In this document: in pieces, positions 51,344 through 55,926 of the stretch | Layout of the letters: each line of letters starts with the position of its first letter | How positions within the stretch are numbered: position 1 is the first letter of the stretch | From: Gemmatimonas sp. | GTDB taxonomy: Bacteria > Gemmatimonadota > Gemmatimonadetes > Gemmatimonadales > Gemmatimonadaceae | Direction: 5' to 3' | Length of the DNA: 64,000 nt | Assembly (NCBI RefSeq): GCF_021298855.1 | Contig: NZ_JAJTHI010000039.1 | Location: 1 to 64,000, forward strand | The notes under the pieces: generated by a model | What the model was told of the DNA's origin: nothing | Seen by the model: only the letters and a program-made list of their open reading frames with translations | The model's database searches: none | Position numbers and translations under genes: made by a program

Positions 51344-51967
51344 TCAGCTGGCGGCTACTACCGGATTTGACACCCGGCTCAAGCCAACCAGTTCCACCTC
51401 GACGACGTCACCCGGGGACAACCGCCCCACCCCGTGCGGGGTGCCCGTGGCCACCACATCGCCGGGTTCGAGGGTGAGGTACTGCGAGATGTAGTGCAGC
51501 AGGAACGGGATGCGGAACGCCATGTCCCCACCCCGGGCCCGCTGCACTTCCACCCCGTTGAGGCGCGTGACCAGCTCGATGGCGTCGAGGTCGGCCGGCG
51601 CCGGCACCGGTTCGCCAATGGGGCAGAAGGTGTCGAGTCCCTTCGCCCGCGCCCACTGCCCGTCGTTCTTCTGCAGGTCACGCGCGGTCACGTCGTTGAG
51701 TGCCACCACGCCGCCCATGGCGGCCACCGCCTCGGCTTCACTGGCCGCCCGGCTGAGCCGTGCGCCCATCACGATGGCGATCTCCCCCTCGTACTCGATG
51801 TGCGTGGACACCGGGTGAAGCACGATGGCCTCGCCTTCGCGAATGATGGACGAGGGCGGCTTGAGGAACAGCAACGGTTCCGCCGGCAGGTCGTTGCCCA
51901 TTTCCTTGGCGTGCAGGAGATAATTGCGACCGACGCAGACGATCTTGGAGGGGCGATGCATGGTCAT
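51344..51967 (-). CDS. Fumarylacetoacetate hydrolase family protein
   Basis: A 207-residue single-domain enzyme of the FAH fold, cleaving C-C bonds in 2,4-diketo or oxaloacetate-like acids. Motifs are KIVCVGRNYLLHAKEMGN, FLKPPSSIIREGEAIVLH, the metal-binding EYEGEIAIVMG and the final TGTPHGVGRLSPGDVVEVE. Small members of this size are often oxaloacetate decarboxylases or acylpyruvases. The start at 51967 gives the family N-terminus. It lies 44 nt before the TonB-like gene and 112 nt after the JAB-DinG gene. Confidence 0.9.
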   Translation of the reverse strand: MTMHRPSKIVCVGRNYLLHAKEMGNDLPAEPLLFLKPPSSIIREGEAIVLHPVSTHIEYEGEIAIVMGARLSRAASEAEAVAAMGGVVALNDVTARDLQKNDGQWARAKGLDTFCPIGEPVPAPADLDAIELVTRLNGVEVQRARGGDMAFRIPFLLHYISQYLTLEPGDVVATGTPHGVGRLSPGDVVEVELVGLSRVSNPVVAAS

Positions 51968-52079
51968 CGGGGAGATCGGGGTGGGGGCGAACAGCAGAAG
52001 CGTACAGGGTAAAGTGTTACCTCCTGACCGCACTGCGCCAGCAGAAGCCCCGGTTCGCGACGTGCTGTTGGGAGGCAAC

Positions 52080-54626
52080 TCATGACTCTTTACGCTGCTG
52101 CCGTTCCCCCCGGTAGAACCTCGCCATTTCCCCGCGCACCTCTCCCCACGCGCCCACCAGTCGCCTGGCCGGCGGCAGCGCGTCGAGCAACTCGCGGCCA
52201 TAGCGTTTGCTGATCACCCGCGGGTCGCTGAGCACCACCACGCCGGCGTCGGTGGCGGTGCGAATGAGTCGGCCGAATCCCTGCTTGAGCCGCAACGAGG
52301 CGTGCGGCAGCATGAACTCGCCAAAGCTGTTGCCGCCGCGCGCCTCGATGGCCTCGCATTGCGCGGCCACCATGGGTTCGGTGGGCACGCGAAACGGCAG
52401 CTTGGCAATGAGCAGCCCGCGCAGGGCGTCCCCCGGCACGTCCACTCCTTCCCAGAAGGTGGCGGTCCCCAGCAGCACCGCGCGCCCGCTGTCGCGGAAA
52501 CGCTGCAACAGCACGTCCCGTGGTTCCTCACCATGCACCAGCAGCGGCCACGCGCCCCCCTGCCCCGGCCCGCGCAGCCATTCCGCCGCCTCACGGACAT
52601 CGCGGTGGCTCGTGAACAGCGCAAACAGTCCACCATCGCTGGCCGTCATGAGGTCACGCAGCTGACGGCACACCGCGGCGAAATGCTCGCGCGGCTGTTC
52701 GTTGGGCGCCGGCAGATCGGTGGGCACCACCAGCACCGCCTGACGGGGATAGTCGAAGGGTGAGGGGAACATCGCCGCCCGTTTCGTTCGCCGCGCGTCG
52801 GCAATGCCCAACCGTTCCTCGAGGAACGCAAACCCGCCGTGCGTGGCCAGCGTGGCGCTGGTGATCACGGCCGTTTCCACGCGCTCGAACAGATCCTCGC
52901 GCAGCACCGGCGCCAGATCGAGCGGTACGCAATGCACGGCCACGTTGCGCTCGTTGGGTGTCGGCTTGCCCTGGAACTCCATCCAGCGCACCACCGGCGG
53001 CCCGTCGGCGGGTGGCATGAGCCCCTTGGCCAAGGCGTCGCCGGCACTCTGCAGTCGGCGCAGCACCGCCCGCACTTCGTTGAGCAGCGGGGCGAGCTCC
53101 TCCGCGCGCTTCTGGTCGCTCTCGAGACGGTCACGCACCACCTTGAGTCCGGTGGCCAGCGCGTCGATTTCCGTGAGCAGTTCCTTGAGCGTGCCTTCGA
53201 TGCCGTTGCGCCACAGATCATGCTGCTGGAACTCCCCGGTGAGTCGCATGACCGCCGTACCCTGCATTTCCAGCACGGCAGCGAGCAGCTCGAAGAGCAG
53301 CTGCACGCGGTCGCGCGCCGTGAGGGTGCTGGAGAGCAGCCGCTCCTGCACGAGATCGAGGCTCGCCACGCTGAGCAGGTCCTTGGCGCCGGCCAAGCGC
53401 GCGGCCAATGCGGGCAACAGCCCCTTGCCACGCCGTTCGAGCCGGTTGAACATGCGCGCCAGTGCGCGCCGGGTGATGGAACTGCCCAGATGCGAGGCCG
53501 CCGCATCCTCGAGATGATGTCCCTCGTCGATCACCAGACGCTTGTATGCCGGCAGCACGGCGGCCTCATCCCAGTTCTGTGCCTGCCGCCGCACCGCCAC
53601 GTCGGACAACAGCAGGTGGTGGTTCACCACCACGATGTCGGCGTTCGCCGCTTCCTTGCGCGCCTTGAAGAGGAAACAGTCGGCGTAGAACTCGCACTTG
53701 AGCCGTCCGCACAGGTCGGGCTCTGCCGAGACCTCGTCCCAGATGTCCGCCCGCGGCGCCGTCCCCAGATCGCTCAGCGAGCCATCCTTGGTGCGCTGCG
53801 CCCACTCGGCAATCTTCGCCACTTCGCCGGACGCATTGTCCTCGAAGAGCGCCGCCCCCGCCCCCTGCGCCTGCTGCAGCCGGTACAGACACAGGTAGTT
53901 GCGCCACCCCTTGAGCAGTGCGAAGCGCACCGGTTGATCGGTGAGCGCGCGCTGCAGGAACGGGAGGTCCTTGGCTACCAGCTGCTCCTGCAGCGTGATG
54001 GTATTGGTGCTCACCACGGTGCGCTCGCCATTGGCAGCCGCCCAGCGCAGTGCCGGCACCAGGTACCCCAGCGACTTGCCCACGCCCGTGCCGGCCTCGA
54101 GCAGCGCCACGCCCCCTTCGTTGAACGCCGTCACCACCTCGGCCGCCATGGCGCGCTGACTCGGACGGTCTTCGTAGTCGCGCGCCCCGTGCACGCGGCG
54201 CATGGCCTGCGCAATGAGGCCGTGGGGGCCAAGCTGCACATCCACGTCGTCCGGATCGACGGGCACCAGCGTGCGCCCCTCGGGAATCTCCGTCACGAAG
54301 TAGATGCGCGTGGCGTCGTTGTCCACGATGGCGAAGCCCACCCCGTTCATGTGGAGGCGGTACGCCACCTCCATGTCGGCGTCGCTCGGGGTGAGTTCGC
54401 CCGAGGGGTGGTTGTGCACCAGCAGTTCGCCGCGATCGGCCACGCCGGGCAGGGCCAGCACACTCTGCACGTCGCCCGCCGCGACCTTGCGCGCGGTGGC
54501 CACCTGGCCCTGGTCGTCCACGGTGCACACGAAGCACACTTCGTTGCCGCCGTGCAACCGGATCTGCGTACGAATGGCGGCCGCCGCCTTGGGCAGCAGC
54601 CGCGCTTCTCCTGCCACCTGCGCCAT
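52080..54626 (-). CDS. JAB/MPN (JAMM) metalloprotease-DinG helicase fusion
   Basis: An 848-residue protein with two domains. Residues ~10-115 form a JAB/MPN module: E29 in GGNEVCFVC, then H71-x-H73 in LLVHNHPSGELTPSDAD with D84, the complete H-x-H-x10-D zinc motif plus the catalytic glutamate, most like the RadC/prokaryotic JAB group. From ~150 to the end is an XPD/DinG-type superfamily 2 helicase: Walker A EAGTGVGKS (lysine ~184), VVSTNTITLQEQL, four cysteines around LKGWRNYLCLY and DLCGRLKCEFYADC for a 4Fe-4S cluster, DEAH-type VIDEGHHLED, VITSATLATHG, GTATFWEGVDVPGDALRGL and QGFGRLIRTATDAG. DinG enzymes unwind 5' to 3' at damaged or RNA-paired DNA. Start at 54626, 10 nt after the upstream gene. 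Confidence 0.93.
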   Translation of the reverse strand: MAQVAGEARLLPKAAAAIRTQIRLHGGNEVCFVCTVDDQGQVATARKVAAGDVQSVLALPGVADRGELLVHNHPSGELTPSDADMEVAYRLHMNGVGFAIVDNDATRIYFVTEIPEGRTLVPVDPDDVDVQLGPHGLIAQAMRRVHGARDYEDRPSQRAMAAEVVTAFNEGGVALLEAGTGVGKSLGYLVPALRWAAANGERTVVSTNTITLQEQLVAKDLPFLQRALTDQPVRFALLKGWRNYLCLYRLQQAQGAGAALFEDNASGEVAKIAEWAQRTKDGSLSDLGTAPRADIWDEVSAEPDLCGRLKCEFYADCFLFKARKEAANADIVVVNHHLLLSDVAVRRQAQNWDEAAVLPAYKRLVIDEGHHLEDAAASHLGSSITRRALARMFNRLERRGKGLLPALAARLAGAKDLLSVASLDLVQERLLSSTLTARDRVQLLFELLAAVLEMQGTAVMRLTGEFQQHDLWRNGIEGTLKELLTEIDALATGLKVVRDRLESDQKRAEELAPLLNEVRAVLRRLQSAGDALAKGLMPPADGPPVVRWMEFQGKPTPNERNVAVHCVPLDLAPVLREDLFERVETAVITSATLATHGGFAFLEERLGIADARRTKRAAMFPSPFDYPRQAVLVVPTDLPAPNEQPREHFAAVCRQLRDLMTASDGGLFALFTSHRDVREAAEWLRGPGQGGAWPLLVHGEEPRDVLLQRFRDSGRAVLLGTATFWEGVDVPGDALRGLLIAKLPFRVPTEPMVAAQCEAIEARGGNSFGEFMLPHASLRLKQGFGRLIRTATDAGVVVLSDPRVISKRYGRELLDALPPARRLVGAWGEVRGEMARFYRGERQQRKES

Positions 54627-54636
54627 CACGGTCCCG

Positions 54637-55926
54637 TCACGTCTTCCGCGGCTTCTTCTTGGCGGCCGGGAACAGCACGTTGTTGAGGATGAGACGGTAC
54701 CCCGGAGAATTGGGGTGCAACGACAGATCGGTGGGGGCACTGCCGATCGCGTGCTGCGGATCCTCGGGATCGTGTCCGCCGAGGAAGGTCCACGAGCCCT
54801 TGCCGTAGTCGCCGTGCAGATACTTGGACCATGGCGCCCCTTCCTCCTGCGCCAGCACGGTCACGTTGCGCTTCACCACCGCCTTGTTGAAGCTCGTGGT
54901 CACCCCGTAAAAGTCGGCGACTACGGTGCGATGATTCTGCACCAGCATGGTGGCCACGGGATCGAGCTTGGCACTGAAGCCGAAGAGCGAAAAGGTGCCC
55001 AGCGGCTGCCGCCGCGACGGCACGTTGACCTGATGGCCATCAATGTCGCTGAGCGCGTTCACATAGGGCGACGGCTCCACGTGCGCGCCCTGGAAGGCCA
55101 GAGCGCGCGTCCAGTCGAGCTTCGCATCGGCGTTCGGGTCGGGCGGCGTGCCATCGGAAAACGGCCCGGCAATGTCCACCACCAGCGAGGCAATGGACAG
55201 GTCGAGCGATTCGGTGGCCCCGCACATGGCGAAGAGGAACCCCCCGCGATCGACGAAGCCGCGGATGTTGTCGGCCACGGCCTTCTTGAGCGCCGGTACG
55301 TTGTCCTTGCCGAAGAGCCGCCCGGTGCTGAGGTCGCGCTCGCGCTGCGCCACGAACCAGGGCGCGTCACGGTAGGCGAGATACAGCTTGTTGTACTGCC
55401 CGGTGAAGTCCTCGTGGTGCAGATGCACCCAGTCGTACTTGGACAGATCGCCCTTGAGCACCTCGTTGTCCCACACGGACGCGAAGTCGATGCCGGCGTA
55501 GGTGAGGGCGAGGGTGACCGCGTCGTCCCAGGGTGGCTGATCGACGGGACGGTAGATGGCAATCTTGGGCGACCGTTCGAGCACGACGGCGTCCATGTTG
55601 CCGCCGGCGATCTCCGCCCGCACCGCGGCGACGGCTCCATCGGTCATGGGCTCCACACTGACCCCTTCCAGCGCGGCCCGCTTGCGCAGGTCGGGCACGT
55701 CGGGAAGCAGGAAGGCACCGCCCCGATAGTTGAGCAACCACTCGGCCTTCTGCCCGGCCTTGAGCGCCTGGTACGTGACACCGTACGCCTTGAGGTGATT
55801 GCGCTGCGCGTCGTCCATGGGCAGCAGCAGATGCTGCGCGGCCACGGGACGCGCGAGTGAGATCACGGCCCCGACGAGAAGCAGCGTGGCGCGCACGGCG
55901 CGAGTGACCAAGGGGCAGACGGGCAT
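54637..55926 (-). CDS. Exported protein of the family often labelled asparagine synthetase B
   Basis: A 429-residue secreted protein with a signal peptide ending PVAAQ near residue 30. Landmarks are LLLPMDDAQRNHLKAYGVTY, WLLNYRGGAFLLPDV, RSPKIAIYRP, DWVHLHHEDFTGQYNKLY and FLFAMCGATESLDLSIASL, then a beta-rich end with GSWTFLGGHDPEDPQHAIG and SPGYRLILNNVLFPAAKKK. It has neither the N-terminal glutaminase nor the synthetase domain of real AsnB; the middle looks like a class I glutamine-amidotransferase-like fold with the FLFAMCGAT elbow. True role unknown. It ends 10 nt before the JAB-DinG gene. Confidence 0.75.
   Translation of the reverse strand: MPVCPLVTRAVRATLLLVGAVISLARPVAAQHLLLPMDDAQRNHLKAYGVTYQALKAGQKAEWLLNYRGGAFLLPDVPDLRKRAALEGVSVEPMTDGAVAAVRAEIAGGNMDAVVLERSPKIAIYRPVDQPPWDDAVTLALTYAGIDFASVWDNEVLKGDLSKYDWVHLHHEDFTGQYNKLYLAYRDAPWFVAQRERDLSTGRLFGKDNVPALKKAVADNIRGFVDRGGFLFAMCGATESLDLSIASLVVDIAGPFSDGTPPDPNADAKLDWTRALAFQGAHVEPSPYVNALSDIDGHQVNVPSRRQPLGTFSLFGFSAKLDPVATMLVQNHRTVVADFYGVTTSFNKAVVKRNVTVLAQEEGAPWSKYLHGDYGKGSWTFLGGHDPEDPQHAIGSAPTDLSLHPNSPGYRLILNNVLFPAAKKKPRKT

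Follow-up and report, generated by a model that had tools for sequence, protein, structure and literature searches.

What does a JAB-family zinc-hydrolase domain do when it is joined to an iron-sulphur (FeS) helicase? The question is raised by one gene in the window analysed here, the 64,000 nucleotides at positions 1 to 64,000 of contig NZ_JAJTHI010000039.1 from Gemmatimonas sp. RadC-type JAB domains are common throughout bacteria, and a permanent link to a helicase indicates where such a domain acts.

Gene and domain organisation

The gene lies on the minus strand, where a single 848-aa frame runs from an ATG at 54626 to a stop at 52082-52080; the forward strand of 52080-54626 is broken by stops. 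Low dN/dS ratios in both parts of the protein (JAB 0.06-0.16, helicase 0.04-0.07, for orthologues at 98-89% identity), together with a match in 125 of the 150 Gemmatimonadota genomes sampled, indicate that the frame is real and did not arise by chance. The initial annotation, which gave no strand, had placed E29, H71, H73 and D84 correctly, and the full DinG helicase that it described is present with Walker A, four FeS cysteines, DEGH and motif VI. Pfam matches to PF04002, DEAD and Helicase_C_2, each passing its cut-off, confirm the predicted union of a JAB domain and a DinG/XPD-type FeS helicase in one chain, with the following features.

52080..54626, minus strand: whole gene, RadC-like DinG (JAB-DinG), 848 aa, ATG start
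54273..54605, minus strand: N-terminal RadC-type JAB domain, aa 8-118 (PF04002, PDB 2qlc, hhalign)
54540..54542, minus strand: E29, general-base Glu of the JAMM site, conserved in 94% of the orthologues that have JAB
54375..54416, minus strand: H71-N-H73-P-S-G-x4-S81-x2-D84, zinc ligands and Ser of the JAMM site
54180..54272, minus strand: linker, aa 119-149, LGPxGxiAxxxxxxYEDRPxQ, retained in JAB-less orthologues too
52107..54179, minus strand: DinG/YoaA-type SF2 FeS helicase, aa 150-840 (Helicase_C_2, DEAD; PDB DinG 6fwr, 5e-56)
54072..54098, minus strand: Walker A EAGTGVGKS, aa 177-185 (core GTGVGKS, aa 179-185)
53676..53891, minus strand: FeS region, Cys246, 306, 311 and 317
53517..53528, minus strand: DEGH box, aa 367-370
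52260..52283, minus strand: motif VI QGFGRLIR, aa 782-789

With S81 completing the pattern HxHx7SxxD, the protein carries the entire E...HxHx7SxxD motif of JAMM (iso)peptidases. Profile comparisons place the fused domain closest to RadC, with the peptidase JABs further away. Pfam RadC (PF04002) covers aa 15-93 in a scan of the whole protein (1.6e-7, above the curated cut-off), and the window domain alone scores 1.4e-9 against PF04002 versus 0.038 against PF14464. PF04002 is matched by all 25 JAB family members and Prok-JAB, weakly, by 13 of the 25 (E up to 0.1, best 9e-4). For a profile (A4) built from the JAB domain of 25 diverse orthologues the best solved structure is RadC (PDB 2qlc, 7.9e-7), AfJAMM being a weak match at 0.34, and an hhalign comparison matches it to the stand-alone RadC of the phylum at 97.2% probability (E 3.9e-11; 71 columns, 24% identity). 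RadC itself (PDB 2qlc; G000:C88 in the window genome) has a JAB domain with HNHPSGxxxPSxxD, as in the window protein, but as a stand-alone protein RadC comes without a helicase and with an N-terminal region of its own, and against NCBIfam RadC the window protein reaches 27.4 bits, under the cut-off of 180. These profile matches support assignment of the N-terminal domain to the JAB fold. AlphaFold2 models from shallow alignments had mean pLDDT values of 41 (full protein, 5 sequences) and 51 (JAB domain, 8 sequences); Foldseek with the low-confidence domain model gave no match under E 0.2, and VIA-align gave Z values up to 3.3, with MPN chains among the weak matches at Z 3.2 and below.

The initial annotation had suggested that the JAB domain acts as a peptidase, cutting proteins that crosslinks or conjugation hold on DNA at the fork. 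The JAMM site, complete to Ser81, is compatible with this, as are the weak profile similarities to AfJAMM and Prok-JAB, the presence of the JAMM proteins CsRpn11, PfJAMM1, DrBRCC36 and CSN5 among the weak Z 2-3 matches of our low-confidence model, and the JAMM proteases likewise returned by DALI for the published model of a RadC-like DinG (PMC11981726). The sequence is nevertheless nearest to RadC, a family described in PMC5512222, which draws on Iyer 2011, as being without the ubiquitin-tail groove; this, together with the fusions to DinG/RAD3 helicases, underlies the hypothesis given there that RadC domains process nucleic acid.

In the helicase part the best NCBIfam model is YoaA (NF053712, 563.5 bits, under the equivalog cut-off of 680); the DinG models score 469 and 436 bits, both also under their equivalog cut-offs, and CasDinG (Csf4, type IV CRISPR) 114.5 bits, under its cut-off of 400. 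The low-confidence full model has a helix at 827-847, which may be compared with the C-terminal alpha7 of MD2 in RadC-like DinG. In families f4-f6 Cys246 is replaced by Ser, giving SCCC (L051-L053, L055-L057, L059-L076), JAB-intact proteins included.

Relation to known DinG-like proteins

The initial annotation did not treat this as a standard DinG architecture, but it has already been published. Cheng 2025 (PMC11981726) sorted bacterial DinG-like proteins into ten subgroups, one of them 'RadC-like DinG', and identified in it the same E/H/H/D site, with no experiments reported; fusions of RadC with DinG/RAD3 helicases had been noted earlier by Aravind's group (Iyer 2011), according to PMC5512222. 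In the literature collection searched, the name 'RadC-like DinG' returned Cheng 2025 alone (PMC11981726). The type protein, from Desulfuromonas soudanensis, combines the same RadC-like N-terminal domain (E, H, H, D) with an FeS helicase, sharing motor motifs and FeS cysteines with the window protein, and HolC is missing from the genome in both cases. The published set holds one representative per order, and its main text does not name Gemmatimonadota (PMC11981726). The window protein, whose named relatives come from Gemmatimonas and Gemmatimonadaceae MAGs, is thus a Gemmatimonas-type member of a known subgroup, to which we add evidence of conservation, loss and pseudo-domains in Gemmatimonadota.

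E. coli DinG and ExoDinG are SF2 FeS helicases like the window protein, and ExoDinG also has an N-terminal enzymatic domain, but there it is a DnaQ exonuclease instead of a JAB domain; ExoDinG and EndoDinG both carry N-terminal nuclease domains (PMC11981726). E. coli YoaA, the family with the best NCBIfam score, is likewise a four-Cys FeS helicase, but it is without an N-terminal domain and needs HolC, which the window genome lacks.

Conservation, loss and decay of the JAB domain

Among Gemmatimonadota genomes at least 90% complete, a search with profile A4 (E up to 1e-12) found the JAB family in 242 of 300, nearly always in single copy, and among the matches listed the domain almost always lies inside frames of 800-1300 aa, with room for the helicase. 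On these matches JAB-DinG is nearly universal in the phylum. The window genome also has its separate ordinary RadC (G000:C88), so the fusion is an addition to RadC, not a substitute for it. Near-complete genomes of family f7, genus g13 and part of genus g3 gave no detectable match to the helicase, and these groups apparently have no close DinG/YoaA relative at all.

All four residues E/H/H/D are intact in 63 of the 74 orthologues with usable helicase parts that could be aligned, and these span six families. In the rest the domain has met different fates. It is absent from six proteins of genera g3, g4 and g7 and from L076. In L069 unrelated sequence stands where JAB would be and, as this has no match to the JAB profile, we take the domain to be replaced, not degenerate. 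In L066, L068 and L070 a full-length domain is still recognised (E 1e-36 to 2e-15) but the site residues are gone. Loss or replacement of the domain took place about three times. Relocation of JAB elsewhere in the genome was considered and rejected: the sequence neighbouring JAB-less helicases held no displaced JAB fragment, and JAB-less genomes no second JAB beyond ordinary RadC. A quick tree built from the helicase part requires at least four changes between the intact and non-intact states, a count that may be off because the tree search was short and branches around L068, L070 and L076 are long.

A comparable case lies outside the phylum, in Fusobacterium vincentii (L098:3992-6451), where a DinG-like helicase has a collinear N-terminal domain that aligns full-length to JAB (E 1e-4, against 1.5 for the best of 200 shuffles) with E29, H71, H73 and D84 all replaced; the 2.1 Mb L098 record, listed in PLSDB as a plasmid, is a chromosome. 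Pseudo-domains without the site are found in two Gemmatimonadota lineages and in Fusobacterium, and the helicase motifs beside them are intact. More generally, Walker A, DExH, motif VI and 3-4 FeS Cys are retained in JAB-intact, JAB-dead and JAB-less copies, the exception being a single truncated alignment row without motif VI. While RadC-like DinG was described as highly conserved (PMC11981726), in several of the lineages compared here the RadC domain is dead or missing. In the reduced genomes (1.8-2.0 Mb) G109 and G121 of genus g63 and G131 of genus g66, the JAB domain of the fusion is dead and there is no stand-alone RadC.

Loss of the site is accompanied by faster change. In intact relatives JAB identity equals or exceeds helicase identity; in L066, where the site is lost, it is 0.54 versus 0.69, and in L068 0.30-0.33 versus 0.43-0.44. 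By these identities JAB changes faster than the helicase after the site has been lost. Retention of the site as a unit under purifying selection would fit catalysis, the repeated loss of JAB beside an intact helicase suggests that unwinding is independent of JAB, and the dead domains that persist point to a second role without catalysis, such as binding. As far as sequences can tell, the site is constrained where it is kept and the helicase does not need it. The initial annotation had taken the full JAMM set to imply activity and homologues without it to count against its reading. Selection for activity is indeed suggested by the 63 of 74 intact copies, but homologues without JAMM residues do occur (L066, L068, L070 and Fusobacterium L098), so that activity would not be universal in the family.

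The pattern of loss bears on two further explanations. One treats the N-terminal domain as a passenger, an accidental fusion tolerated by what is just a DinG/YoaA helicase. Its loss from at least one large clade (genera g3, g4 and g7), the helicase being kept, is in keeping with this, but retention of JAB in 242 of 300 near-complete genomes and the JAB dN/dS of 0.06-0.16 make it very improbable. The other makes the domain mainly a non-catalytic adaptor for protein or DNA contact, its metal site serving for shape or a minor role, and is backed by the full-length, site-less pseudo-domains that persist in L066, L068, L070 and Fusobacterium. It accounts poorly for the four residues kept in 63 of 74 orthologues from six families, and for the rise in domain divergence when they go.

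Gene neighbourhood and possible partners

As the initial annotation had stated, the gene lies between one for an exported protein and one for a FAH-fold enzyme.

54637..55926, minus strand: exported 429-aa protein, directly upstream, with no Pfam family; conserved neighbour across the phylum
51344..52201 (longest ORF), minus strand: FAH-fold enzyme, downstream (PF01557, 7.8e-61); conserved neighbour

The gene for the 429-aa protein ends 10 bp before the JAB-DinG ATG, and the true FAH start is probably inside the longest ORF, near 51964. Both belong to a block (DUF4175-like, TPR, exported 429-aa protein, JAB-DinG, FAH enzyme, TonB-like, gltX) that shows partial conservation in the phylum. Of 20 loci surveyed outside the window, 16 have the exported protein immediately upstream of the helicase, and it adjoins a dead-JAB helicase too (L122). 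It is the helicase gene's closest conserved partner (window, L103-L122), its 56-94% identity being above that of the helicase itself. As no known repair gene is found among the conserved neighbours, the context names no substrate. A second LexA-like repressor (LexA_DNA_bind and Peptidase_S24) is encoded between gltX and the TonB-like gene in L105-L112; eight other genera have it near the block, the window's genus does not, and a better-scoring lexA is found elsewhere in those genomes. We dropped this gene as a link to the SOS response, since it is on the opposite strand in the other genera and absent from the window.

HolC recruits E. coli YoaA. In the window genome and 48 relatives HolC (PF04364) was absent (0/49; the control was positive in E. 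coli), which at profile sensitivity excludes recruitment through HolC for these 49 genomes. Its absence from all 49 also means that another tether would be needed, a part that the adaptor explanation assigns to JAB; on balance we consider that explanation somewhat unlikely. Pup ligase was absent from the same number of Gemmatimonadota genomes (0/49, controls positive where expected), which excludes, again at profile sensitivity, a depupylase role in them, and no ubiquitin-like partner is seen among the conserved neighbours. Protein stripping is thus not supported, as the domain is nearest to RadC and the 49 genomes have no Pup ligase; nothing tested here pointed to a peptide substrate, and we judge a peptidase acting on crosslinked or conjugated proteins to be unlikely. 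A reading in which a helicase-coupled peptidase frees DNA of bound proteins or peptides as a bacterial functional counterpart of SPRTN/Wss1 and has been dropped or disarmed in some lineages seems to us quite improbable.

A possible function

Set beside the domain order, the intact site, the helicase motifs, the purifying selection, the conservation throughout the phylum and the repeated JAB losses documented above, the reading that we tentatively favour is that of a helicase with a tethered RadC-type JAB hydrolase, which may act on nucleic acid, or on an attached adduct, exposed by unwinding. A YoaA/DinG-class FeS helicase would be predicted to act on forks, 3' nascent ends or DNA-RNA hybrids, unwinding in the 5'-3' direction. 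It could in this way open a blocked or damaged end, whereupon the tethered JAB domain would hydrolyse a bond, either of the nucleic acid thus exposed or of an attachment that it carries. By analogy, JAB sits where ExoDinG and EndoDinG have their nuclease. As the helicase appears to work without it, JAB would be an accessory that widens the range of ends handled, and its decayed forms (g63, G131, Fusobacterium) are probably left only as binding or structural modules.

Several points weigh against a nucleic acid-directed hydrolase. We know of no RadC-type JAB with a demonstrated substrate, and HxHx7SxxD, including its Ser, is the motif of JAMM peptidases too. The neighbours, exported proteins and a FAH enzyme, are not DNA-repair genes, and the fold is backed by sequence profiles alone, both AlphaFold models being of low confidence. 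In Gemmatimonadota the same helicase is found, among close relatives, with JAB intact, dead or missing, so that the function of JAB can be tested directly by complementation.

Viral and plasmid sequences

None of the 49 JAB matches on viral contigs is followed by a DinG helicase, and the DinG helicases of the plasmid and phage collections are without JAB, save that of the Fusobacterium chromosome filed as a plasmid. One viral contig (L143:2851-3429) encodes a small stand-alone JAB protein, HNHPSGNIGPSKLD, with no helicase nearby, which is unusually near the fused type (39% over 70 aa). On four others (L144, L148, L153 and L154) RadC-type JAB domains lie in frames of about 2000 aa, resembling the polyvalent proteins of mobile elements.
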